A DNA stretch of 32,592 nt from Fidelibacterota bacterium (lineage in GTDB: Bacteria > Verrucomicrobiota > Kiritimatiellia > JAIPIQ01), in assembly GCA_021734645.1 (NCBI GenBank), contig JAIPIQ010000005.1, positions 1 through 32,592 on the forward strand, read 5' to 3'. A model generated the notes under the pieces. That model saw nothing but the letters and a program-made list of their open reading frames with translations. It was not told the DNA's origin and searched no databases. Both the position numbers and the translations under genes were made by a program. Below are positions 3,045-24,437 of the stretch, one piece after another; the stretch's first letter is position 1, and each line of letters starts with the position of its first letter.

Positions 3045-4484
3045 ATGATGCCCGCACGTCGCCCGAATGTTTTGATGATCCTGACGGATGATCATGCCGC
3101 GCACGCCTTGAGCTGCTACGGCAGCCGAATCAATACGACCCCCCACCTGGACCGGATCGCGGCGGGGGGGATGCGCTTCGACAACTGTTTCTGCACGAAT
3201 TCGATCTGCGCGCCGAGCCGGGCGTCCATCCTGACGGGCACGTATCCGCACGTGCATGGAGTGACGACTCTCTGTCCGCCTTTTGACAATCGGTTGGAGA
3301 CCTTTCCGAAGGTGCTGCAACGGCATGGTTACCGGACGGCGTTGTTTGGGAAGTGGCATCTGGGCGAGGGGCCGGAGCACCGGCCGACGGGTTTTGATGA
3401 CTGGGCGGTGCTGCCGGGGCAGGGGCGTTATTTCAATCCGATTTTTCTGGAGCCGGGGGCGGACGGGGAGGAGACGCGGGGGGTGAAGCGCGGGTACGTG
3501 ACGGACGTGATCACGGACCTGGCGCTGGACTGGCTGCGGGGGCGGGACGCGCAGCAGCCATTCTGTCTGCTGGTGCATCACAAGGCGCCGCACCGGCCCT
3601 GGCTGCCGGACGAGCGCCATGCGCACCTGTACCTGGACGAAACGGTGCCCGAGCCGGAGACGTTGCTGGACGACTACCGGAACCGGGGTGCGGCGGCGGC
3701 GGCGGCGCACATGCGGGTGGGCGTGCACATGACCATGCGCGATCTCAAGTGCGAGGTGCCGGTCGAGTTTCCCGAGGACGAGCTGCGGCGTTTTGCGTAT
3801 CAGCGTTATATCAAGGACTACCTGCGGGTGGTGGCCAGCGTGGACGACAATGTCGGCCGGCTGCTGGATTACCTGGATGAGGCGGGGTTGGCGGAAGACA
3901 CGGTGGTGGTCTACAGCTCGGACCAGGGGTTTTTCCTGGGCGACCACGGCTGGTACGACAAGCGCTTCATGTACGAGGAATCGCTGCGGATGCCGTTTCT
4001 GGTGCGCTATCCGCGCGAGGTGGCGGCGGGGACGGTCAACGGCGATATTGTCACGAACGTGGATTTTGCGCCGCTGTTCCTGGATTTGGCCGGGATCCCG
4101 GCGCCGGCCGGGATGCAGGGTCGGAGTTTCCGTCCGCTCCTGCGGGGCGAGACGCCAGCGGACTGGCCGCAAGCGATGTACTACCGGTACTGGGCGCACA
4201 ACACCCCGAGTCATCACGTCCATGCGCATTACGGCATCCGCACCCGGGCATTCAAACTGATCTATTATTACGGCGTCGGCAGCGATCTGCCCGATGCCAA
4301 CGGCGAGCCGACCCCGCCGGAGTGGGAATTGTTCGACTTGCGCACCGATCCGCGCGAGCTGAACAACGTCTACCACGACCCGGCCTATGCGGCGGTGGTG
4401 CGGGAGCTGACGGCCGCACTCGAGCGTTTGCAGCGGGAAGTGGGGGATACGCCGGTCGGCCCGTCCACGGGTGCCGGGACATGA
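3045..4484 (+). CDS. Sulfatase (type I, Cys-type formylglycine)
   Basis: N-terminal RPNVLMILTDD metal-binding motif; CAPSRASILTG FGly signature (Cys codon 3207-3209); C-terminal WELFDLRTDPRELNNVY. ATG at 3045 or 3048. Confidence 0.93.
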   Translation: MMPARRPNVLMILTDDHAAHALSCYGSRINTTPHLDRIAAGGMRFDNCFCTNSICAPSRASILTGTYPHVHGVTTLCPPFDNRLETFPKVLQRHGYRTALFGKWHLGEGPEHRPTGFDDWAVLPGQGRYFNPIFLEPGADGEETRGVKRGYVTDVITDLALDWLRGRDAQQPFCLLVHHKAPHRPWLPDERHAHLYLDETVPEPETLLDDYRNRGAAAAAAHMRVGVHMTMRDLKCEVPVEFPEDELRRFAYQRYIKDYLRVVASVDDNVGRLLDYLDEAGLAEDTVVVYSSDQGFFLGDHGWYDKRFMYEESLRMPFLVRYPREVAAGTVNGDIVTNVDFAPLFLDLAGIPAPAGMQGRSFRPLLRGETPADWPQAMYYRYWAHNTPSHHVHAHYGIRTRAFKLIYYYGVGSDLPDANGEPTPPEWELFDLRTDPRELNNVYHDPAYAAVVRELTAALERLQREVGDTPVGPSTGAGT

Positions 4485-9385: not shown

Positions 9386-10860
9386 ATCCACAGACTTCCG
9401 TCCGCCGACCGAATCTCCTGGTGATCTGCGACGACCAGCATTCGGGGCTCTGTTGCGGGTTCCAGGGGCATCCCCTGGCGCGTACGCCGCACCTCGATGC
9501 CCTGGCCGCCGCGGGCACGAACTTCCGGACCTGTTACTCGAACAGCCCGGTCTGTGTCGCCGCGCGCGCCGCGCTTTTCACGGGGCGCTTCCCGCACGAG
9601 GTCGGCGCCTACGACAACGCGGCCCCGTTCCAGGGCCAGGTGCCGACCTTTGCCCAGGCCGCGCGCGCGCAGGGCTATCTCTGCCGGGCGTCCGGCAAGC
9701 TGGATTTCTGGACGGGGAAGGATTACGGGTTCGAAGAGGACGTGGTCTTTCACGGCCACGACGTCAGCCCCGATATCACCGCGCTGTTCCGGAACCCGCT
9801 CTGCTACCGGGAAGACGCCCGTCTGCAGCAGGGCGGCCGGATCCGGGCAGACGACGAACCGTGGCAGGACCGGGCGACCGCCGACCGGACGTTGCGGTTC
9901 ATCCGTGAGCGGGCGGCCGAGCCTGGGCGGCCCTGGCTGGCCTATACCGGCTGGGGCTATCCCCACAATCCGTACCGGGCCTCCCGGGCCATGCTCGAGC
10001 AGATCCCGCTGGAGGCGGTCGAGCTGCCGCACCTGGCGCCGGACTGGTGCGAACACGAGCACCCGGTCATGCACCTGCGGCGGTTTCACGGCCGCGGGGC
10101 GCGCCAGGCGGAACCCGCCGCCCTCCGGCTGGCGCGCGCCTGCTACTACGCCATGATCACGGAAGTGGACGCCCTGGTCGGCGATTTGCTCCGCGCCCTC
10201 GAAGAAACCGGTCAGCGCGAAAACACGATCATCCTTTTCACCTCGGACCACGGCGACATGCTCGGCGAGCAGGGGCTCTGGCACAAGAACGCGCCCTACG
10301 ACCCGGCGGCCCGCGTGCCGCTGGTGGTGGCCGGGCCCGGCATCCCCGCGGGTCGCACCGTCGCGAACCCCGTCTCCCAGGTGGACGTCTGCGCCACGCT
10401 GCTCGATTTGGTCGGCGCGCCGCCGGATTCGTCCGCCCGCGGCCAGTCTCTCCTGCCGCTGGCGCGCGGCGACCGGCACGACCATCCGCCGGCCTACATG
10501 GAACTCAATACCGAAGGGCTGATCACAGGCGTCTTCACCTTGGTCCGCGACGAATGGAAATACAATTACTACGTGGATTACCCCCCGCAGTTGTTCAACC
10601 TGCGCGACGACCCCTGGGAACAAAACAACCGCGCCGAGGATCCCGAGACCGCGCCCCTCCGCGAGGAGCTGCACCGCCACCTGCTGGCTCTGGTCAATCC
10701 CGAACAAGTCCACGAGGCGGCCTTTGCCGACCAGGCCCGCCGGCGGCACGAGTGGTACGGCGGCAAAAGCGCACCGGAAATTGTCCAGGCCCTCGTCAGT
10801 CGCCTCGGCCCGGAGCAGTCGCAACGCTTCGCCGCGCGGATAGTAGAGGGCAGGGGCTAG
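9382..10860 (+). CDS. Sulfatase with non-canonical CVAAR active-site motif
   Basis: RRPNLLVICDDQHSG; CVAARAALFTG at the FGly position; LFTSDHGDMLGEQGLWHKNAPYDPAARVPL is a strong sulfatase C-half motif. ATGA overlap with the upstream CDS. Confidence 0.9.
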   Translation: MNPQTSVRRPNLLVICDDQHSGLCCGFQGHPLARTPHLDALAAAGTNFRTCYSNSPVCVAARAALFTGRFPHEVGAYDNAAPFQGQVPTFAQAARAQGYLCRASGKLDFWTGKDYGFEEDVVFHGHDVSPDITALFRNPLCYREDARLQQGGRIRADDEPWQDRATADRTLRFIRERAAEPGRPWLAYTGWGYPHNPYRASRAMLEQIPLEAVELPHLAPDWCEHEHPVMHLRRFHGRGARQAEPAALRLARACYYAMITEVDALVGDLLRALEETGQRENTIILFTSDHGDMLGEQGLWHKNAPYDPAARVPLVVAGPGIPAGRTVANPVSQVDVCATLLDLVGAPPDSSARGQSLLPLARGDRHDHPPAYMELNTEGLITGVFTLVRDEWKYNYYVDYPPQLFNLRDDPWEQNNRAEDPETAPLREELHRHLLALVNPEQVHEAAFADQARRRHEWYGGKSAPEIVQALVSRLGPEQSQRFAARIVEGRG

Positions 10861-10895
10861 CCCCTAACCCCTAACCCCTAACCCCTAGCCCCTAA
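10861..10895. repeat. Tandem heptamer array (CCCCTAA)3-CCCCTAG-CCCCTAA
   Basis: Five exact 7-bp units read directly, preceded by the palindrome GGGGCTAGCCCC (10853-10864) that contains the upstream stop codon. Confidence 0.97.
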
Positions 10896-10915
10896 CGACC
10901 CCAGGAACTCAAAAC

Positions 10916-13900
10916 ATGAAAACTGCCCTGCACACCCTGTCCATTGGAACCGCGTTGATCTGGATGCTGGTCGGCGCACAGGCGGCCGCCGCCGCGGAGG
11001 CCGAGGACGCCCCTCCGTACCGCTACCTGACGATCAGCCTGCCGAAACTGGCGCAGGAACCGGTCATTGACGGCGCGATTGATCCGCACATGCTCGAGCA
11101 GGCCGCCATGGGCCCGCGTTTCACGATTCCCGGCCGCGATGATGCGCCGGAAGACCGGCTGACCTCGGCCCGGATGCAGACCTACTTCAGTTATACGGGC
11201 AGGGGGCTGTACCTGGCCTGGCGCATGGAACGCCCCGACGGTTACGAACGGCCCGTGGCCACTGTCCTGGCGCGCGAAGGCGCCGCCCAGGGCGGCGTGG
11301 GCTCCTTATGGCGCAGCGACGATATTTTCGAATTGCAGATTGATGCCGTCAAGGCGAACCCCGACGCGCGGGACTACTACTTCATGTGGAATTTTGCCGG
11401 CACCCGCTGGGGCCGTATGATGTATCCGCAGGTGCTCCAGCCCTGGCTGCCCGAGTGGCAGGTGGCCAGCAACGAAGCCTACGAACCCGGCTGGGAGGGC
11501 GAAGCGTTCTTCCCGTTCGACATTTTTCCGGACGTGGATCCGCCCGCGTCGGGCGAAGCCTGGCGGGTATTCTTCTTCCATAACCGCCTGACCCCGTACC
11601 CCCGGCTCGAGTTATTCTCCTGGCCCTACGGGCGGCCCGCCCACACCACGCGGGATTACGCCCGCCTGATCTTCGCCCCGGCGGACGGCGTCTATACCCG
11701 CATCGTTGACAGCGGCCTGCTGGCCGACCGCCCGGGCGCCAGCGGCCTGCTGTTCGAACTGGTCAATCCCGCGGACGCCGAACGGCGGGTGACGCTCCAG
11801 GCGGATCTGTATCGCCGCAAGGACGATGCGCCGGCCGGCACGAGCTACCTGCGCGAGTTCGAACAGACCCGCGACAAGCCCGGCACCGCCCAGGCGGGCG
11901 TCATTGACCTGTATATCCCCGACGACCAGCTCTCGGCGCAGATTCGCGCCGAGTACTACGACGTGGTCCAGACGATCCACGAGACCGTGACGCTCGCGCC
12001 GGGCGCCCGGCTCGCGCGGGAGCTCGTCACGGAATCAACTGAGCCGGCGCAGTACCTGGTCATCCACGAAGTGCGCTGCGCCGACACCGGCCGGTTGATC
12101 GCCGGTGCGCCGCTCCAGTACGAGGTTCCCGATCCGATGGCGGTGAAGACGACCTTGTTGCCGCTCGTGTCCCGGCGGCTCGACGTGGAAGTGGACCTGC
12201 GGTATGTCCCCGGGTTCCGGGAGCCCGGCGTGCTGAGCGCCACCCTGTCCGGCCCCGGCGGAACCGTCTTCGAGCAGCAGTGGCCCGCAATCTCGAATGA
12301 CACCCGCACCCAGCGCTTTTCCATCCCCCTGGCGGATACACCGCCCGGCCCCCAGACCCTGCGCGTGGTCGCCGCCAATGCCGCGGGCCAAACGCTCATC
12401 GCCCGGGAACGGACGATCGAGCTGCCCGAAACGCCCGACTGGTTCCGTGACCCCGTGGCGGCGGCGCCCTTCATCCCCGAGCCCTGGACGCCGATCGCGC
12501 TCGACGGCCGCCGGCTGTCCCTGCTCATGGGCTCCTATACCTTCGCCGAGGGCCCCTTCCCGGAAAGCATTGACGTGCAGGCCATCGAGGAGGCTGCGGA
12601 GAAATCCCTGACCCGCCGGGCGCCGGCCCTGCGCGGGCGCGCCGACCACGCCGAGCTCGCCTGGGAACCGGCGTCTTTCGACATGCAGCGCGAGCACGAG
12701 GGGCGCGTCGTCATCACGACGGAGTCCTTCGCCAATAATCTGGCCCTCCGCGGACGCACTACCGTGGAATACGACGGGTTCATCCGTTTCGATCTCACGC
12801 TGGCGCCGCGGAATCCCGACGAGCCCGTGGACCTCGAGGCGCTGTTCTTCGAAATCCCGATGCAGCCGGAATTCTCGCGTCTCTATTCCCGCGGCAAGGT
12901 CATGGACGGTCCCGACGGGTTCCTGGTGGCCGGCGAGGTGCCCGCCGAAGGGCTGCGGCACCCGTGGACGAACACGTCCTGGATCGGCAACGAACAGCGC
13001 GGCCTGATCTGGTTCGCCGAGAATGTCAAAGGCTGGCGGCTCGACCCGGCCTCTCGCGACGAGGCCATCGAACTGGCGCCCGGCGCCGCCGGCGCCGATC
13101 TGCGGATCCACCTGGTGAAGGGGCAAGCTCCGCTGCGCCTCGACGCGCCCAGGGAAATCACGTTCGGGATCATGTTCACCCCGCCGTCGCCCCTGTACCC
13201 GGAACTGATCCGCAAGTATCAGCGTAACGTCGCCGCGTTCACGGAACCGATTTCCGACGAGCAGTTTGCCGCGCGGGAAAAACGGATGGAGCAGGAGGCG
13301 CGCGTGAACACCTTCTGCTTCTTCGATTATTTCGGCGTGCAGCCCAAGGGCTGGCCCGAAATGACGGATCCGGAACAGATCGCCCAGCACCGCCGCCGCG
13401 GGGATATCATCCATGCGCTGGGCGGCCGGGTCATCGCCTACGCCGGGTGGTGGATGCCGCGCGATGCCGCCGTCTTTCAGGACTTCGGGATGGAAATGAT
13501 CGCCCAGCCGATCACTCCGGGCGGTCTCAACACCCTGTATTGCTGTTACAACACGCCGTACACCGAGATCTGGACCCATCTCTGGAAGCAGCGCATTCAC
13601 GATACCGGGGTGGACGGGTATCGCCTGGACGCCAGTTTCGAACCGACTCGCTGCGCGAGCCTCGAACACCGGGGGCACGGCTCGGAGTGCGGCTGGATTG
13701 ACGACGACGGCAAGGTCCAGCCGAGTTACGGGATGTTCGCCGCCCGCGAGGCGTCCAAACGGACCTACAGCCTTTTCCACGGGCTCGAGCGCAAAGGCGG
13801 CCTGTGCGGGCATCACCACAATTTCGGCCTGCCCGATCCGCGCGCGTCGCACTGCGACTTCTTTCTTAATGTCGAGGGGCCGGAGCGGGTGGTGCTGACC

Positions 13901-15010: not shown

Positions 15011-16258
15011 ATGAAATCGAGTGGTGAGCGTGATATCCTGCGCGACCTGGTGCGCCGGTACCTTGAGATTGCCCGGCATCCCCGCCAGGAAACCGTGCGG
15101 GAGAAATGGCGCGGCCATAACAGTCTCGAGCCGGACGATGGCCCGCCACCCGTGCTGGTCCAGTTCGGTCTCTACAACGTCTGGTGCCGCGCATTCATCG
15201 AAGCCCAATGCCGCTGTAGCGACCCGACGCTGCGGAACATGGAGCGCGGCCTGCGCCTGAAGCTTTTCGCCGCTACCCTGGATGACGACACGGTCTTCGA
15301 GCCCTGGTGGTCGGTCGGGGCCGTTCACGTCCTGCCGCCGGACGGTTTGTGGGGCCTGCGCGAGGGCCGCGTCGCCAGCGGCGGGGAGGGCGGCGCATTT
15401 GCCATGGATCCGCCCCTCAAGGCGCTCGAGGACGTCGCGCGGCTGACGGTTCCGCAACACCGGATTGATGAAGCGGCCACTGCCGCGCGCCTCGGGCGGC
15501 TCGAGGATGCGGTCGGGGACCTGATCACGCTGGACCGGACCCGCGGTTCCGCCTACGGCCATTTCAACGGCGATATCTCGACGCGACTGGCCCAGTTGCG
15601 CGGGCTCGAGCAGACGATGCTGGATATGTACGAGAACCCGGAATGGCTGCATGGCCTCCTGGCGTTCATGCGCGACGGCATCCTGCGCGCGCAGCAGCAG
15701 GCGGAGGACGCCGGCGACTACAGCCTGACCTGCCACGATAACCAGGGCATGCCCTACAGCCGGGAACTGGAAGATCCCCGGCCCAACAGCGGGCCGCGCG
15801 CGCGCCGCCAACTCTGGGGCTTCATGGCCGCCCAGGAATTCACCCTGATTTCACCGCGGATGCACGAGGAGTTCCTGCTGCGTTACCAGCGCCCCATCAT
15901 GGCGCCCTACGGCCTGACGCACTACGGCTGCTGCGAAAACCTGACCGCCAAGATTGACCTGCTGCGGACCATCCCCAACCTGCGGCGCATCGCCGTGACC
16001 CCCAGCGCCGACCTGGCGCGCTGCGCCGAACAGATCGGCCGCGACTACGTGATCTCCTGGCGGCCCAACCCGACCGACATGGTCTGCGCCGGCTTCGACG
16101 CCGACCGGATCCGCCGCATCGTGCGCGCCGGCCGCGCGACCTGCCGGGCCAACGGCTGCGTCGTGGATCTCAGCCTCAAGGATATCGAAACCGTCGAGGA
16201 CGATCCTGGCCGACTCGCGCAATGGGTCCGCCTCGTGCGTGCCGCCTGGGCGGACTGA
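15011..16258 (+). CDS. Uroporphyrinogen decarboxylase (URO-D) superfamily / corrinoid methyltransferase-like protein
   Basis: THYGCCENLTAKIDLLRTIPNLRRIAVTPSADLARCAEQIGRDYVISWRPNPTDMV is typical of the URO-D-like family near glycan genes. Confidence 0.65.
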   Translation: MKSSGERDILRDLVRRYLEIARHPRQETVREKWRGHNSLEPDDGPPPVLVQFGLYNVWCRAFIEAQCRCSDPTLRNMERGLRLKLFAATLDDDTVFEPWWSVGAVHVLPPDGLWGLREGRVASGGEGGAFAMDPPLKALEDVARLTVPQHRIDEAATAARLGRLEDAVGDLITLDRTRGSAYGHFNGDISTRLAQLRGLEQTMLDMYENPEWLHGLLAFMRDGILRAQQQAEDAGDYSLTCHDNQGMPYSRELEDPRPNSGPRARRQLWGFMAAQEFTLISPRMHEEFLLRYQRPIMAPYGLTHYGCCENLTAKIDLLRTIPNLRRIAVTPSADLARCAEQIGRDYVISWRPNPTDMVCAGFDADRIRRIVRAGRATCRANGCVVDLSLKDIETVEDDPGRLAQWVRLVRAAWAD

Positions 16259-16315
16259 ACCCCCGGCCGAGGAAACTGTCCGCGGCTGATAGAAGTGGAG
16301 CCGCAAAGAACCCAG

Positions 16316-16341
16316 CGCGCGCCAAGAAATGCGGGCGCGCG
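16316..16341 (+). terminator. GC-rich hairpin downstream of the URO-D-like gene (possible terminator or 3' processing stem)
   Basis: CGCGCGCC (16316-16323) is perfectly complementary to GGCGCGCG (16334-16341) with a 10-nt loop. No U-tract follows. Confidence 0.4.
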
Positions 16342-16346
16342 GTAAT

Positions 16347-16433
16347 GACGCTCGACGCCGGACGCTCGACGCCGGGAGAAATACCTGTTTCCGGCCTTCC
16401 CCGCTGGGCGTCGGGCGTCGCGCGTCGGGCGTC
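16347..16433. repeat. Hairpin-forming heptamer-arm repeat, copy 1 of the 64-bp dispersed element (core 16368-16431)
   Basis: 5' arm GACGCTC-GACGCCG-GACGCTC-GACGCCG; 3' arm GGGCGTC-GGGCGTC-GCGCGTC-GGGCGTC. 41 bp (16391-16431) are identical to 23780-23820. Confidence 0.93.
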
Positions 16434-16550
16434 GTTGCCGCGGACATGCCCGGCATGATTGAACCGATCAGCGGACTCGACAGCGGCCGTTTTCTTTTGT
16501 AAAAAGGGGTTGCGTTGTGATTGGCAATGAAGTCCGACGGAGGAGGCGTG

Positions 16551-17804
16551 ATGATGAAGAGCGGATTGTTCAGGTTATCGGCATGCTTGTTTATCGGGGC
16601 GGGCTGGTTGGTGATCGCGGAGGGGCAGACCGTGGGCGTGTCCATCAGTGTGGATGGGCAAGCGGTGAATTCGAACGCCATGCTGGACGTGCAGTCGCCG
16701 CCGACGGGTGATGGCAAGAGGCTGTTGATGCCCCGGGTTACATTGAGTCAACGGACCAGTGCGGACAGCGCGCTGGCCGGCGGCTTGTTGAACGATGGCG
16801 GCCAATTGCGCGGAGGCGCGGCGCAGGGCCTGCTGGTGTATCAGACCGACGATGTGCAGGGACTGTATTACAACACCAGCGCGACCGCCTCGCCGACTTG
16901 GGCCTATGTGGGTTCCGGCAATGGTGATTTCCGGGCCGATGGATCCGTGCCGATGACCGGGCGGCTCAATATGAACGGGCAGTCAATCACCAACGTGGGG
17001 GAGAGTGGGGTCAATTTCAGCGGTCTGAATGTCGCGGTGGGGAACAGCGCGTTCGCTTATTCTTCCACATCGGGCAGTGTGGCCATTGGCCGCAACGCGA
17101 CGGCGCGCTATCGCACCAGCGGCGTGGCGCTCGGGATGGGCGCGGACGGCGATTACAACGGCATCGCCATCGGATATATGGCCGACGGCCAGTACAGCAA
17201 TATCGCAATTGGATATGCGTCCAGCGCCTATTCCGGATACGATCGCGTTGCCATCGGCCGCTCAATTACGAACCGCCGGAATGATTCGGTTGCCATGCGG
17301 GGCACGCTGTACCTGGATGGCGGCACGGGTGTCCTGTATCGAGCTTCTTTTGGCGTTGGAGCTTGGACCGCCAAGGCGTTCACGATTGATCACCCGCTTG
17401 ATCCGGAGCACAAAGTGCTGCGGCACTACTGCCTGGAGGGGCCGGAGGTCTGGAATGTGTATGCGGGGAACGTCCTTCTGGTCAAGGGGCGAGCGGTGGT
17501 TGAACTTCCGGACTACTACGGGGCGCTCAACCGGGAGGGATCTGAGGTGTACCATCTGACGGTGGTGGACGGCGCCGCGACCTTGTTCCCGCAGGTCAAG
17601 GTGTTACGCCCGGTGGCCGGCAATACCTTCGAGATTGCGGGGACGCACGATGTGCGGGTCAGTTGGGCCATCCAGGTGCTGCGGAATGACGAGGCGTTGC
17701 TGAACGATTTGAAGAACCGGCCGGTCGAGCAGATGAAGCGCGATCTGCCTTCGGGGCAGATTGAACAGGAGCGTCGCGTGGTCAACACCTTGAACGGTAA
17801 CTGA
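16551..17804 (+). CDS. Secreted fibre/adhesin-like protein with YadA-head-like repeats and a tail-fibre-like C-terminal domain
   Basis: GGAGGAGG RBS; repeats NVAVGNSAFA / SVAIGRNATA / GVALGMGADG / GIAIGYMADG / NIAIGYASSA / RVAIGRSIT; C-terminal AFTIDHPLDPEHKVLRHYCLEGPEVWNVYAGNV. Confidence 0.8.
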   Translation: MMKSGLFRLSACLFIGAGWLVIAEGQTVGVSISVDGQAVNSNAMLDVQSPPTGDGKRLLMPRVTLSQRTSADSALAGGLLNDGGQLRGGAAQGLLVYQTDDVQGLYYNTSATASPTWAYVGSGNGDFRADGSVPMTGRLNMNGQSITNVGESGVNFSGLNVAVGNSAFAYSSTSGSVAIGRNATARYRTSGVALGMGADGDYNGIAIGYMADGQYSNIAIGYASSAYSGYDRVAIGRSITNRRNDSVAMRGTLYLDGGTGVLYRASFGVGAWTAKAFTIDHPLDPEHKVLRHYCLEGPEVWNVYAGNVLLVKGRAVVELPDYYGALNREGSEVYHLTVVDGAATLFPQVKVLRPVAGNTFEIAGTHDVRVSWAIQVLRNDEALLNDLKNRPVEQMKRDLPSGQIEQERRVVNTLNGN

Positions 17805-17816
17805 GGCCGCGGCGCC

Positions 17817-20800
17817 ATGCAGTTCCTGAAATGTATCGGTTGCCGGGTTGCGCCGCTCTTGCTGGCGGCCGCGCAACTCGCGCCCGGCGCAACCATCCGC
17901 ATCGCCGGTGGAACGTGGCAGGCGGCTTCGCATCTCAGGGGTACGAATTTGGTTGTCGAGGCCGCCGGGCGCCTGAGTGGAACCGGCACGGTGCATATGG
18001 CGGCGACGATTCGCGGTGAGGTGTCGCCGGGGCGCGGCCCGGCCGATGTCGGCACGCTGTCGTTCACCGATGCGCTCACGTTTGACGGCGGGCAGTTTGC
18101 GTGCCATGTGGCGGCCTTCGATGCCGCGGATCTGTTGTCGGTGGCGGGCCGGGTGTCCGGGGCGGCCAGGGTGGTCACATCGTGCGCGGGCGGCGTGGCG
18201 CCGGACCAGCTTGTGATTGTGTCGGGGGCGGCGAACAGCGACTACAGTCTGTTCGATGTGGCGCCCGCGACCGGCTGGGTCCTGGGCCAAAGCGGCGCAT
18301 TGAACCTGCACATCAGCGGCCTTCCCGGCATCAGCGTGCTGGGGACGAACGGCGCGGTAATCGCCAGTGCCGCAGCGCCCAGTCCCGTGACGGGGACGGA
18401 CTTCGGGCATGTGCATTGGGGTAGGACGGTGACCAATACCTTCAGCATCACCAATGGGGGAATCGCCACGCTGACGATTCAGTCGTCCCATCTGACCGAG
18501 CAGGCGAATTTCTCCATGGCCGGCATTCCGGCCACCTTGCCCGCGGGCGGTGTGAGCAACTTCAATGTGGTCTATGCGCCGATGGCCGTTGGATCTCATG
18601 CGGCGGCCGTGATCATCAGCAATAGCGCGCCGGACAGTCCGTTCACAGTCAATCTGGCGGGAGCGTGCTATGCGCTCTCCACAAACATTGGACCTTTCGC
18701 CGGCGGCAACACCATCACGATCACGAACGGCCATTTCGGTGCCATTACTAATGTGCTGGTGGACCTTGTTGACGTCATTGACCTTGTGGACAGTGGGGTC
18801 AATTGGGTCACTGTGGTCATGCCCGCGCTGGGCGCGGCAGGCCCGGTCGACATCATCATCCAAACCTCCGACAACGGCGACACCTTCCTGTACAATGCCT
18901 ACACGTACAATCCCGCGGGCATCATTACGAACGTATCGCCGGCCTTGGGTTCGTGGACCGGCGCCGTCCCGCTGGTGATTGAGGGATCGAATCTGGGCAA
19001 CGGCGCGGATATCACCAACGTGACCCTGTGCGGCGTGGCGGCGACGATCAGCAGTCAGGCCACCGAGCGGGTCTGGATCGTGGCCGCAGCGTCCGGCGCC
19101 GGCGCGCTGACCGGCGATGTGGTTGTCTCTTCCACCAGCTTCGGCACGACGACCAGATCCAACGCCTTTGAATACACCAAAGAGGCGCAGGCGATCACGT
19201 TCGATCCCATCGCGGCCAAGACGTACGGCGATGCGGCTTTTGATCCGGGCGCGACGGCCAGTTCCGGCCTTGCCGTCAGCTACAGTAGTTCGGATGCGAA
19301 TGTGGCCACCGTGTCTGTGCACGATATCTACATCACCGGCACCGGCGTGTGCGACATCGTCGCTTCACAGGCGGGGAACAGTTTCTACCATGCCGCGCCG
19401 AGCATCACCAACAACCTGGCCGTCACGAGGAAGGAGCTGAGCGTAACCGGCGCCGTGGCCTCGAACAAGGTCTACGATGCCACGGCCACAGCCTGGCTCA
19501 GCGGCGCGACGCTCCAGGGCGCCGTTCCCGGCGATGAGGTCACGCTCGCCAATGCCGCCACCGGCACGTTCGCGCAGGCGACAACCGGCACAGCCATCGG
19601 CGTCACCACGCACATGACCCTCACAGGCACACACGCCCCACAGTATCATCTGCGGCAACCGACCGGACTGTCCGCCGACATCACTGCGCGTGAGTTGACG
19701 GTCACCGGCGCGATGGCGCAGAGCAAGGTGTACGACGGCACCAAGGCCGCCGCGATCACCGGTGCGGGACTGTCCGGCGTGCAGGGCAGCGACGTGATCA
19801 CGTTGGGCAACCACACTACTGGCACATTTGCAAATGCCAACGCAGGTACAGGCGTAACCGTCCACACCCACATGACCATCAGTGGCGATCAGGTTGCTAA
19901 TTACACACTCACTCAGCCTACGCTGTCCGCCGACATCACCAAGGCGGATCAGGCGATCACATTCGACGCGCTGAGCGATGTATTCTGGACGAACGTAGTG
20001 GATGTCGCGGCCACGGCCGACAGCGGGTTGGCCGTGAGCCTGGAAGTGGTCAGCGGACCGGCGAGCCTGACGGATCCGACCAGTCCGACGACGTTGACGA
20101 TGGATGGGTACGGCGCGGTGCGGGTGGCGGCCTCCCAGGCGGGCGACACGAACTGGAACGCGGCGGTGACGGTGACCAACACGTTCAACGCGCTCGGACC
20201 GCAATTCACGGTCCTGGGCACCAACGGGGTGGTGGTTGTTCATGACAACGTCGCTGCCTTGCCGGACGGCACGGACTTCGGTTCGGCGCGGATCGGGCTC
20301 GAGACGGTGACCCATGTCTTCGCGATCACCAACGCGGGCACAGCCGAGGCGACGGTCCTGGGCATTGTCACCAACGGACCGCAGGCCGGGTCGTTCGCGA
20401 TCCTGAATCCGCCGACGGCGGTACCCATGAATGGCGCGGTCGAGTTTTCGGTCGCGTTTGATCCGCAGGCGGGGGAGACCAACCGGGCGAGCCTGGTCTT
20501 CACGTTCGACGGCACGAACGCGCCTTACCAGGTAAACATGGCGGGCTTTGGGTACGGCGGGGCGCTCGGGTTTACGTCGAACGGGCTGAGCTTCAGCGGG
20601 ACGTACGTCGGCGCTGATCCGGTCAACCAGACCTTGATGCTGACCAACAGCGGGTCGAGCGCGATCAACTGGACAAATGTGATCACGTACGGGGTCGGCG
20701 CGACCGATTGGCTGACGGTGACCCCGACCGATGGGAACCTGCTGAAACAAAGCGCGGCGGAGCTGGCCGCGGCGGTGAGCCTCGCCGGGCTCAATGCGGG

Positions 20801-22529
20801 CACCTACTACGCGACCAACACCTTCAGCGCGCCCGGGGCGACCAACTCGCCCCAGGCCTTCGCCGTGGCCTTGACCGTGGCCAAGGCCGACCAGGTGATC
20901 ACCAATTACCTGCCGCCGGATGGCGCGCACTTCATCTTCGGCTCCGCGACCACGGTCAGCGCCCAGGTGCGCAGTGAATTGCCGGTGGCCTTCGAGAACC
21001 TGACGCCGGATATCGCCTTGCTGGTGGCCCCGGATATCACCTTCACGAATCCGGGCGTGGCGCAGGTGCGGGCGACGCAGGTCGGCAACGCCAACTGGAA
21101 CGCGGCCGCGCCGGTGACGCATATCTGGCGGGTCGGGGGCTTGATCACCAACGTCACGCCGGGGGCGGCGAATGTCGGTGGCGGGCTGGATGTCCTGGTG
21201 CAGGGCCTCTGGCTGGGCGACGGCGTGAACATTGCGACGGTACGGCTGGCGGCGGTGCGGGCGACCGTCATCTCGCAGAACGTACATGAGGTCACGGTGC
21301 GGGCCGGACGGGCGCCGGGGGTGGCGACGGGCGATGTCGTCGTGGTCTCGGCCACCGGCGGGGAGATGGTGCTGAGCAACGCCTTCGAGTATCTGTGGCT
21401 GGCTGCGCCGGTGCAACACGATCCGGTGGATGTCACGTCCTCGAGCCTGGTGGCGCGCTGGGACACGGTGCCGGCGGCGACCCGGCACTATCTCGAAGTG
21501 GGGCTGGACACCAATTACACGGCACACCTGGCGGAGTACGACTGGGTGGATGTGGCGCTGGCGCGGCAGTACCCGGTGGCGGGGCTGACGGACGGCACGT
21601 GGTACGCGCTGCGGGAGTTTGCCTGGAATCAGCACGGCTTGAGCTGGCCCTCGCGCACGGTCTGGATTCCCGCGACGACCAACACGCCCTATGAAACGCA
21701 CCCGCCGCAATCCGGTCCGGTCTCCCAGGGCGCGGTCATGGAGCATCCCCTGAACAACATGTTCCATGGGGCGGGGCTGGTCTATAGCGTACAATCGAGC
21801 GATCCGGGCGTGGTGGCCGCGGAGGTCACCGCGGGCGGCGTGCTGCGGTTGACGCCGGTGGGGCCGGGGACGGCCGAGATCACCCTGCGGGCGACCAACC
21901 CCGCTACGGGCTATACCGCGACCTATCGCTTCACCATCGAGGTCATCGGGCGGCCGACGCTGGTCAGCCAGGCCTTCAAGCCGCGCGAGCCCTGGAATCC
22001 GCGCTTCACCCAGACCCTGGTGGTGCGCAACGATTCCGGCCTCGAGGCCATCGGCACGCGGGTACTCTTCAGCAACCTGATGCCGGGGATCACCGTCGAG
22101 AACCAGACCGGTACGGCCTGGGATGGGCGGCCCATGATCGAGATGGAAGCGCCCTTCCCGGCGGGGGCGAGCATGAGCCTCGATATCGTTTACCTGTGCA
22201 CGGGCAAATATACGGTGGATAAATACCCGCCGACGATCGAGCTGCAGTACATTCTGCCGGCCTGGCGGCCGCCGCTGCCGGGCGGGGGAACCTGGGTTGA
22301 TATCCAGGGGGTGCTGCCGGATGGCCGCATCGTACTCGAGTTCGACAGTGTGCCGGGGCTGTACTATGCCATTGAGTATATGAATGACTTCCCCGAGGGC
22401 GCGTGGCGGCAGGTGGTCATGCGCTTGAAGGCCGGCGCCAACCGGACCCAGTGGATTGATTCGGGGCCGCCGGCGACGCTGCCCCCCAGCGGCGTGCGGA
22501 TCTATCGCGTCAAGCAGGTGCAGGAATAG
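17817..22529 (+). CDS. Very large secreted Ig-like repeat protein (ASH-like, IPT/TIG-like, MBG and YDG-type repeats, BACON-like segment)
   Basis: Paired modules: VLGTNGAVI..TDFG / VLGTNGVVV..TDFG; GIITNVSPALGSWTGAVPLVIEGSNLGNG / GLITNVTPGAANVGGGLDVLVQGLWLGDG; two SNKVYDATA / QSKVYDGTK YDG repeats. Confidence 0.85.
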   Translation: MQFLKCIGCRVAPLLLAAAQLAPGATIRIAGGTWQAASHLRGTNLVVEAAGRLSGTGTVHMAATIRGEVSPGRGPADVGTLSFTDALTFDGGQFACHVAAFDAADLLSVAGRVSGAARVVTSCAGGVAPDQLVIVSGAANSDYSLFDVAPATGWVLGQSGALNLHISGLPGISVLGTNGAVIASAAAPSPVTGTDFGHVHWGRTVTNTFSITNGGIATLTIQSSHLTEQANFSMAGIPATLPAGGVSNFNVVYAPMAVGSHAAAVIISNSAPDSPFTVNLAGACYALSTNIGPFAGGNTITITNGHFGAITNVLVDLVDVIDLVDSGVNWVTVVMPALGAAGPVDIIIQTSDNGDTFLYNAYTYNPAGIITNVSPALGSWTGAVPLVIEGSNLGNGADITNVTLCGVAATISSQATERVWIVAAASGAGALTGDVVVSSTSFGTTTRSNAFEYTKEAQAITFDPIAAKTYGDAAFDPGATASSGLAVSYSSSDANVATVSVHDIYITGTGVCDIVASQAGNSFYHAAPSITNNLAVTRKELSVTGAVASNKVYDATATAWLSGATLQGAVPGDEVTLANAATGTFAQATTGTAIGVTTHMTLTGTHAPQYHLRQPTGLSADITARELTVTGAMAQSKVYDGTKAAAITGAGLSGVQGSDVITLGNHTTGTFANANAGTGVTVHTHMTISGDQVANYTLTQPTLSADITKADQAITFDALSDVFWTNVVDVAATADSGLAVSLEVVSGPASLTDPTSPTTLTMDGYGAVRVAASQAGDTNWNAAVTVTNTFNALGPQFTVLGTNGVVVVHDNVAALPDGTDFGSARIGLETVTHVFAITNAGTAEATVLGIVTNGPQAGSFAILNPPTAVPMNGAVEFSVAFDPQAGETNRASLVFTFDGTNAPYQVNMAGFGYGGALGFTSNGLSFSGTYVGADPVNQTLMLTNSGSSAINWTNVITYGVGATDWLTVTPTDGNLLKQSAAELAAAVSLAGLNAGTYYATNTFSAPGATNSPQAFAVALTVAKADQVITNYLPPDGAHFIFGSATTVSAQVRSELPVAFENLTPDIALLVAPDITFTNPGVAQVRATQVGNANWNAAAPVTHIWRVGGLITNVTPGAANVGGGLDVLVQGLWLGDGVNIATVRLAAVRATVISQNVHEVTVRAGRAPGVATGDVVVVSATGGEMVLSNAFEYLWLAAPVQHDPVDVTSSSLVARWDTVPAATRHYLEVGLDTNYTAHLAEYDWVDVALARQYPVAGLTDGTWYALREFAWNQHGLSWPSRTVWIPATTNTPYETHPPQSGPVSQGAVMEHPLNNMFHGAGLVYSVQSSDPGVVAAEVTAGGVLRLTPVGPGTAEITLRATNPATGYTATYRFTIEVIGRPTLVSQAFKPREPWNPRFTQTLVVRNDSGLEAIGTRVLFSNLMPGITVENQTGTAWDGRPMIEMEAPFPAGASMSLDIVYLCTGKYTVDKYPPTIELQYILPAWRPPLPGGGTWVDIQGVLPDGRIVLEFDSVPGLYYAIEYMNDFPEGAWRQVVMRLKAGANRTQWIDSGPPATLPPSGVRIYRVKQVQE

Positions 22530-22542
22530 AAGGAGAGGCGCT

Positions 22543-23733
22543 ATGCGGACTTTATGGCTGATGCTGTGCTGGGTTGCGGCGAGTTGTTCGGCGGGCTGGT
22601 ATTTCGAGGCCGGGCCCTGGTGGCGCGGGGATATTGACATCGCCGTTGAAGGCGGTTCGCGCGCGGCGCTCGAGGGCGTGCGCGCGGCGCGTTCGGGGAC
22701 GGTGGGCGGGATGGCCGAACCCATCGGGCCGCTGCTCGACGACGACGGAACCGAACAGCGCGAACGCCGCTTCGACGACGGTTTCGTGGGACTGTCCGGT
22801 TGGGACTGGGCGCGCGAGGAGGGCTACACCCAGTACTGGGGCTATGACCGCCAGAGCGCCTACGACCCCGCCACCAGCACCCTGAGCTTCGAACGCAGCT
22901 TCCGGGCTGAAACCAGCGCCACGCGCCAAACGACCAGCGTGCGCAGCCGCGCCTATGACTGGGGCGGACGCCACCGCACCTCGGCCGATGGCCTGCTCAT
23001 GACCCTCGGCTACGCCTTCGTCACCCGGCCCCGCTGGGAAATCGCCGCCCAACTCCAGGCCGGCCGCCTCGAAGGCATTGACGCGCGCTTCGACCGCCAA
23101 CGGGTCTTCACCCAGGAAGTCACCACCCGGACCTATCGCTCGACCCGCTCCCGCGAGGAATCCGTCACCTATTCCTACGACACCCTCGGGAACCCCTTCT
23201 TCCCCGACGCCCCCTACGAAATGACCGAACCCGACGGCATCGGCCCTTTCATCCGCGATACCCCCACCGTCACTGAGTCCCGCCAGCGCGTCACTCAAAC
23301 CGATGAACTGATCAACACCGCCCGCCGCCGCGCCGAAAGCCATGTGGACTTTCGCTTGAATACAACAGCCAACGTCCTGGCCCTGGGACCCCGCCTGCGT
23401 CTGCGGCCCATCCCCCGCCTGGCCCTGATCATCCAGCCGACCGTCACCCTCTACGCCCTCGAAACCGATATCGTCCGCCACGAAACCTTCGGCTGGCGCA
23501 ACGGCCACGAAATCAAAGCCTGGCAGGAACGCCACACTGACCGCGCCGAACGGTGGGGCGCCTCCGTCAGCGGCGGCCTCCAACTCGAAGTCACAGCCAA
23601 CCTTACCCTCAGCGTCCTCGGCGGCTACGACTGGATCGAGGAATACTCCTTCGCTGCCGGACTCGAGACCGTCACCCTCGATCTCGAAGGCTACCGCGCC
23701 GAAGCCGCCATCGGCCTGCGCTTCGGACCCTGA
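22543..23733 (+). CDS. Putative outer-membrane beta-barrel protein
   Basis: AAGGAGAG RBS; short signal peptide MRTLWLMLCWVAASCSAGW; alternating amphipathic strands (FRLNTTANVLALGPRLRLRPIPRLALIIQPTVTLYALETDI) ending AEAAIGLRFGP. Confidence 0.55.
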   Translation: MRTLWLMLCWVAASCSAGWYFEAGPWWRGDIDIAVEGGSRAALEGVRAARSGTVGGMAEPIGPLLDDDGTEQRERRFDDGFVGLSGWDWAREEGYTQYWGYDRQSAYDPATSTLSFERSFRAETSATRQTTSVRSRAYDWGGRHRTSADGLLMTLGYAFVTRPRWEIAAQLQAGRLEGIDARFDRQRVFTQEVTTRTYRSTRSREESVTYSYDTLGNPFFPDAPYEMTEPDGIGPFIRDTPTVTESRQRVTQTDELINTARRRAESHVDFRLNTTANVLALGPRLRLRPIPRLALIIQPTVTLYALETDIVRHETFGWRNGHEIKAWQERHTDRAERWGASVSGGLQLEVTANLTLSVLGGYDWIEEYSFAAGLETVTLDLEGYRAEAAIGLRFGP

Positions 23734-23756
23734 GCACGTATAGGGACGACGAGGCC

Positions 23757-23820
23757 GACGCCCGGAGAATCACCTATCTCCGGCCTTCCCCGCTGGGCGT
23801 CGGGCGTCGCGCGTCGGGCG
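23757..23820. repeat. Copy 2 of the 64-bp hairpin-forming dispersed element
   Basis: 64 bp aligned without gaps to 16368-16431 with 5 mismatches; inner stem CCGGAGA/TCTCCGG, outer GCCGACGCCC/GGGCGTCGGGC. Confidence 0.95.
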
Positions 23821-23840
23821 GCACTCAGAGACCTTGGCGC

Positions 23841-23933
23841 GTTCCAGCGGCTGTAATGGCGTTGTCTTTTCGTTCCAGCGGCTGTAACGGCGGGGATTTT
23901 CCGTTCCAGCCGCTGGAATGGGGTTTGGGGTCA
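23841..23933. repeat. Three-unit tandem repeat, exact 31-bp period, each unit a small hairpin (GTTCCAG CGG CTGNAA)
   Basis: GTTCCAGC starts at 23841, 23872 and 23903. Lies between the converging OMP-like gene and atpK. Confidence 0.9.
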
Positions 23934-24437
23934 GCCGCTGATGAGGGCGGCGGTGGTTTCGACCGCGGCGGCGGCTTCGGCGGGGGCGACGGCGATCATG
24001 GCGAAGACCATGACGAAGAGGGCGACGGTTTCGACGATGCCGAGGACCATCAGGTAGTTGCCGAAGCCCTGGCCGGTTTCGCTGAGGGCGTCGGCGCCGG
24101 CGGCGCCGCAGCGGCCCTGATACCAGGCGGAGAAGCCCATGGCGAGGCCGCCGAAGACGCCAGCGGCGATGAGCAGGGGCCAGGTGGCGGGCGCGGCGGA
24201 GGCCGCGTCGCGAATGGCATTCATGAGGATCATGCCGTAGATGGTCTGGGACAGGGGCGCGCCCACGAAGGCGACCAGGGTGAAGTTGGGCGCCTTGCCG
24301 GCGATTATGGCTTTTTTCCAGGGGCCGATGGCGGCCGGACCGGCGGCGCCGGCGCCGAGGGCCGAACCGATGGCTGCCAGACACAAGGCGGCCGCGCCGC
24401 CAAATCCACCCCACGCTTGCATTACTTCGGCTGTCAT
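23931..24437 (-). CDS. atpK: V-type ATP synthase subunit K (proteolipid, 4 TM)
   Basis: 168 aa, two TM hairpins (GSALGAGAAG...; VGAPLSQTIYGMILM; FSAWYQGR; VLGIVETVALFVMVF); position in the V-ATPase operon. Confidence 0.92.
   Translation of the reverse strand: MTAEVMQAWGGFGGAAALCLAAIGSALGAGAAGPAAIGPWKKAIIAGKAPNFTLVAFVGAPLSQTIYGMILMNAIRDAASAAPATWPLLIAAGVFGGLAMGFSAWYQGRCGAAGADALSETGQGFGNYLMVLGIVETVALFVMVFAMIAVAPAEAAAAVETTAALISG

Follow-up and report, generated by a model that had tools for sequence, protein, structure and literature searches.

The two direct copies of a 64-bp repeat that bracket a three-gene surface-protein unit in a 32,592-nt window, the whole stretch of DNA analysed here, are most probably two copies of a dispersed palindromic element (henceforth PAL) that collects at gene 3' ends, as the REP and ERIC repeats do, and not the mark of a mobile cassette. 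The copy number of PAL, its location bias, its non-detection in sampled relatives, its hairpin potential and its independence from gene content were all established directly. The source is a 2.6-Mb metagenome-assembled genome (MAG) in 224 contigs, 69% complete and belonging by best hits to the class Kiritimatiellae; the genomes compared with it are relatives at class level.

Realignment upheld the direct, ungapped 64-bp match with 5 mismatches between positions 16368-16431 and 23757-23820 that the initial annotation had reported, and corrected its longest perfect run from 41 to 42 bp. The best repeat family for the pair in a repeat search of the window is 65 nt long at 92%, BLASTN lengthens the pair to 16354-16431 and 23745-23820 (78 bp, 88%), and its 22-bp core occurs 2 times in the window as against 0 in 100 shuffles. 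Each 64-bp stretch is the right-hand two thirds of the palindromic element of about 92 bp. Thus, the length first proposed holds for the pair, but the element itself is longer, occupying 16344-16435 on the left, while the right copy runs on into a 31-bp tandem array. The two copies (W1 and W2) and the modules adjoining them are as follows:

16284..16343, + strand: left-flank module (LF) beside W1, a small G+C-rich hairpin common to the C142a copy and C149 (alignment to C142a; C149:5850-5897)
16344..16435, + strand: PAL copy W1, full-length palindrome of about 92 bp (covariance model E 7e-19; fold z -5.7)
23746..23823, + strand: PAL copy W2, with truncated left arm (nhmmer E 5e-17; covariance model E 7e-11)
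23824..23838, + strand: right-flank linker (RF) from W2 to the array, common to C142a (alignment)
23839..23925, + strand: three-unit array of the 31-bp repeat, with the dyad TTCCAGCSGCTGKAA (repeat and pattern searches)

W1 folds with an energy of -60.8 kcal/mol over its 92 nt and contains a heptad array at 16406-16434. W2 has lost most of its left arm and reaches a z of just -1.0; hence, the description of the repeat as structured applies to the left copy and fails for the right one, where any structure-based function may be lost. The LF module is 92% identical over 48 bp to C149:5850-5897, where a mini-palindrome comes after it.

The genes enclosed by the copies and those next to them were delineated as:

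15011..16258, + strand: last gene of the upstream block (gene model; no Pfam or NCBIfam match)
16587..17804, + strand (start could be 16521): gene 1, fibre-like surface protein (gene model)
17817..22529, + strand: gene 2, repetitive Ig/YDG/choice-of-anchor-D surface protein (Pfam YDG, TIG and BACON; NCBIfam choice_anch_D)
22561..23733, + strand: gene 3, conserved partner of gene 2 and putative beta-barrel (adjoins a gene 2 homologue in 5 relative loci)
23931..24386, - strand: V-type ATPase c subunit gene, convergent with gene 3 (Pfam PF00137; gene model)

W1 lies 86 bp past the stop of the upstream gene and 152 bp ahead of the next start, and W2 lies 13 bp past the stop of gene 3, in the convergent gap with the V-ATPase operon. 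As had been claimed, the copies enclose exactly three predicted genes, all on the + strand, and nothing else, and none of the three has a transposase or integrase match in Pfam or NCBIfam. Gene 1 has a homologue in the relative G041 (62-63% identity over 386 aa) and no match in Pfam, NCBIfam or PDB. An AlphaFold model of gene 3 made without an alignment was unusable (pLDDT 32), and the beta-barrel stays putative. The arrangement in which the C-terminal portion of a large protein with Ig repeats is directly followed by a conserved partner of about 400 aa (window 17817-23733; L155-L159) recurs in three class relatives, and the two are possibly a surface protein and the outer-membrane protein that anchors or exports it. 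Elsewhere in the window, a telomere-like heptamer (CCCCTAA) is repeated about 5.7 times at 10857-10896, between sulfatase and GH123-like genes; the perfect two-copy pattern has no other occurrence in the genome.

Homologues of genes 1 and 2 are adjacent in the relatives G041:C19 and G029:C156, and those of genes 2 and 3 in G043, G017 (twice) and G052 (twice), though no single relative contig shows homologues of all three. The relatives with these adjacencies gave no PAL match in BLASTN searches, which argues that the linkage of the three-gene unit was not created by the repeat. The genes flanking the unit were not found together in class-level relatives, and the upstream + strand genes had no homologue in the 80 V-ATPase loci compared.

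A repeat search of the source genome gave 18 matches, and alignment together with a covariance model established PAL at no fewer than 15 sites of the MAG, in both orientations; 15 were used in the analysis. Beyond these, there is a variant on C224, a half arm on C168 and the mini-palindrome on C149. The consensus has arms of about 27-30 nt composed of GACGCCC-like heptads and a middle of about 30 nt, and in the C142 copies the terminal inverted repeats read AATGACGCC.../...GGCGTCATT. Eight of the 10 copies folded reach a z of -4 to -8, W2 and the C19 copy being weaker. The stem shows one compensatory pair, which is not significant, and RNAalifold detected none; this scarcity falls short of demonstrating that the stem is under selection. 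No PAL copy was detected by BLASTN in 56 other genomes of the class. Among 289 sampled genomes of the phylum, with the best two candidates per genome considered, only fragments of 27-36 bp were recovered, in four others, two of which are heptad runs without a palindrome. Likewise, distant BLASTN searches of PAL against plasmids, and of W2 with its array against phages, gave no match, and no Rfam family reached its gathering score, the sub-threshold matches being to miRNAs only. Intergenic short-period tracts of (GGGCGTC)n, (GGGTGTC)n, TAATCC-like and CAGTGATCGG-like words are seen in several Kiritimatiellae (L264 (G135), L046, L149), and the PAL arms may stem from heptad tracts.

The distribution of PAL with respect to genes was determined in 0.48 Mb sampled largely for carrying repeats, using gene models from a hexamer gene finder that was built in-house and trained on part of the same DNA. 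In this sample 11 of the 15 sites are no more than 60 bp away from the 3' end of a gene; placing them at random in noncoding DNA would give 3.25, and none of 400 simulations reached 11. By gap type, 10 sites are tandem, 4 convergent and 0 divergent. Four copies extend substantially into the predicted 3' ends of coding regions, and those at C142a, C221 and C19 lie over 500 bp away from any gene end. The neighbouring genes are unrelated and mostly of the housekeeping kind: a Trk-type channel, an endonuclease III-like protein, PNPase, LexA-like and DinB-like proteins, a redoxin, TrmB-like and Eco57I-type methylases, threonine synthase, TilS, a GFO/IDH/MocA oxidoreductase and a GntR regulator. Thus, the other suggestion of the initial annotation, a multicopy REP-like 3' element, was supported by the number of sites, their two orientations, their unrelated neighbours and their strong attachment to 3' ends. 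Scattered copies unrelated to cassette boundaries, which the initial annotation had named as evidence against a cassette, are indeed present.

Given this distribution, we interpret W1 as a probable end marker of the upstream gene block and W2 as that of the three-gene surface-protein unit. Elements marking gene ends must enclose whole transcription units, and this most simply explains the presence of exactly three genes between W1 and W2. PAL would be transcribed into the 3' ends of mRNAs, where its long stem might protect or process the upstream transcripts and limit readthrough. However, W1 lies between a stop and a start, and the gene that it acts on could instead be the downstream one. More generally, an operon bracketed by direct repeats can be explained without mobility, because repeats at gene ends bracket transcription units automatically.

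The role of PAL at gene ends could alternatively be that of a terminator, with PAL and the 31-bp array together ending transcription from both sides of convergent gaps. W2 and C142b do sit between convergent genes, the PAL hairpin is strong and the 31-bp units have T-rich spacers. Nevertheless, intrinsic-terminator-like sites are absent from the W2 gap and no more frequent than chance in the W1 gap, and in tandem gaps the T-run of the array is more often on the strand opposite the transcript (11 versus 4); we therefore regard this role as unlikely.

The 31-bp units, which consist of a palindromic word and T-rich spacers, form a second repeat family. The TTCCAGCSGCTGKAA core has 64 perfect matches in the genome as against none for the reversed pattern, and paired units are absent from the 56 class relatives. 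Arrays of two or more units number 34 in the 0.48 Mb sampled; 23 of them have a gene 3' end no more than 60 bp away (7.3 expected), and none lies between divergent genes. The spacing of units is exactly 31 bp in 51 of 57 cases, and this 3-turn phasing suggests a DNA-binding protein or a REP-like role. The arrays outnumber PAL and may be of greater interest. An array or a unit adjoins the right side of PAL at W2, C142a, C142b, C221, C19 and C164, and the small hairpin module adjoins its left side at W1, C142a and C149 (there followed by the mini-palindrome). As in BIMEs, PAL, the left hairpin module and the arrays thus make up mosaic 3' elements. A literature search found nothing on either PAL or the arrays, and both are apparently undescribed families from uncultured Kiritimatiellae.

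The copies of PAL are also locally clustered, with 9 pairs under 8 kb apart against 0.65 expected, which is unusual for REPs. Over the right-hand part of the element, pairs of nearby copies show greater similarity than pairs drawn at random (p 0.009; p 0.08 for the whole element), and W1 and W2 are unusually similar to each other. Such clustering is equally true of pairs around housekeeping genes: the C142 group brackets the PNPase, endonuclease III, LexA-like and DinB genes, the C182 group an Eco57I-type enzyme and the C120 group copies of TilS. At C120 (L145 (G000:C120), 16535-16954 and 17521-17953) a 433-bp tandem duplication of 90% identity contains the C-terminal domain of TilS together with a PAL copy, which shows that ordinary tandem duplication can produce nearby copies. 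We accordingly favor a 3'-end element that would have spread by locally biased copying, be it local duplication, gene conversion or mobilisation in trans, without moving the genes between its copies. Once sister genomes exist, this clustering could reveal how such repeats spread.

Mobilisation in trans would be compatible with the favored reading as a way of spread. If taken as the whole explanation, W1 and W2 would be separate insertions of a miniature (MITE) element moved by a transposase acting from elsewhere, a possibility that we consider real though somewhat doubtful. A size of about 92 bp, long inverted repeats, dispersal, restriction to one lineage and a placement in or beside gene ends that includes the copies overlapping coding ends are all as expected for a MITE. 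However, no target-site duplication was evident by eye in the aligned copies, clusters of similar local copies are not the usual MITE pattern, and the palindromes flanking the two RAYT/Y1 transposase genes found are not PAL. These genes (L150 (G000:C155) 3465-4112 and L149 (G000:C168) 10947-11213) each lie near an unrelated palindrome of their own (GGGAACGCGGGGCTCC... and GCGGCAGCGTGAGCTGCCGC). A RAYT as the mobiliser of PAL was rejected on this difference for the two genes found in the 69% complete MAG.

The proposal of cassette mobility or deletion by recombination was weakened, since other PAL pairs bracket housekeeping genes and the gene pairs of the unit recur without PAL. In its explicit form, a Campbell-type splitting, the site would once have held one composite like that at C142a (LF, PAL, RF and a 31-bp array), into which the three genes would have entered by homologous recombination at PAL, leaving a direct copy on each side, so that excision would restore the empty site. 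Consistent with this, the left side of W1 and the right side of W2 align gaplessly, across the element and the right linker, to the intact C142a paralogue at 85% over about 175 bp; the likeness of W1 to W2 and the local clustering also point this way. Yet half-composites are common, with LF and a mini-palindrome at C149 lacking the right module, and PAL with an array but without a full LF at C142b, C221 and C19, and the left arm of W2 is itself truncated. Moreover, the three genes differ little from the neighboring + strand genes in GC and codon scores, and recombinase families, like integrases, had no match among the three in Pfam or NCBIfam. We hence consider this history quite unlikely, and very unlikely the general claim that PAL is a recombination site that brought the surface-protein unit into the chromosome by splitting a C142-like composite and may also let it out again. 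Were it true, a scattered 3' repeat would double as a gene-shuffling site for surface genes.

Among known repeats, the REP/BIME class, including the CGTC-tagged superfamily (PMC3733652), resembles PAL in comprising dispersed extragenic palindromes that form mosaics with other repeats and lie mostly in unidirectional or convergent gaps beside 3' ends; no transposase flanked by PAL was found, in line with what is reported for the CGTC REPs. PAL shares the general REP traits of being multicopy, palindromic, dispersed, extragenic and near 3' ends. However, REPs are 20-40 bp in size, and the CGTC superfamily has an unpaired CGTC tag, a stem of 8-9 bp, a loop of 4-5 nt and a CCA tail (PMC3733652), whereas PAL is about 92 bp long, has arms of about 27-30 nt around its middle of about 30 nt, carries its CGTC words inside the paired arms of a much longer stem and numbers only about 15 copies. 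Like PAL, ERIC/IRU and other small MITE-like repeats (PMC2229807) are palindromic intergenic elements of about 100 bp with a strong RNA fold and no known autonomous partner, and terminal inverted repeats are a trait that PAL shares with MITEs; but PAL appears unrelated to ERIC/IRU in sequence and clusters locally, and neither their TA ends nor a target duplication was seen in it. The REPIN-RAYT system (PMC3116915) is comparable in its inverted doublet folding into a hairpin and in the presence of RAYT-type genes in the genome, and differs in that the two such genes found are flanked by different palindromes and the PAL arm is itself no small hairpin. The 31-bp arrays recall the staphylococcal STAR elements (PMC3532100) in their short conserved word, intergenic tandem arrays and variable spacers, but are distinguished by the 31-bp phase, the palindromic word, the position beside gene ends and a different sequence and phylum. 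The best reading of PAL is thus a new lineage-restricted REP/ERIC-like element, best called, after its general kind, a dispersed 3'-end palindrome.
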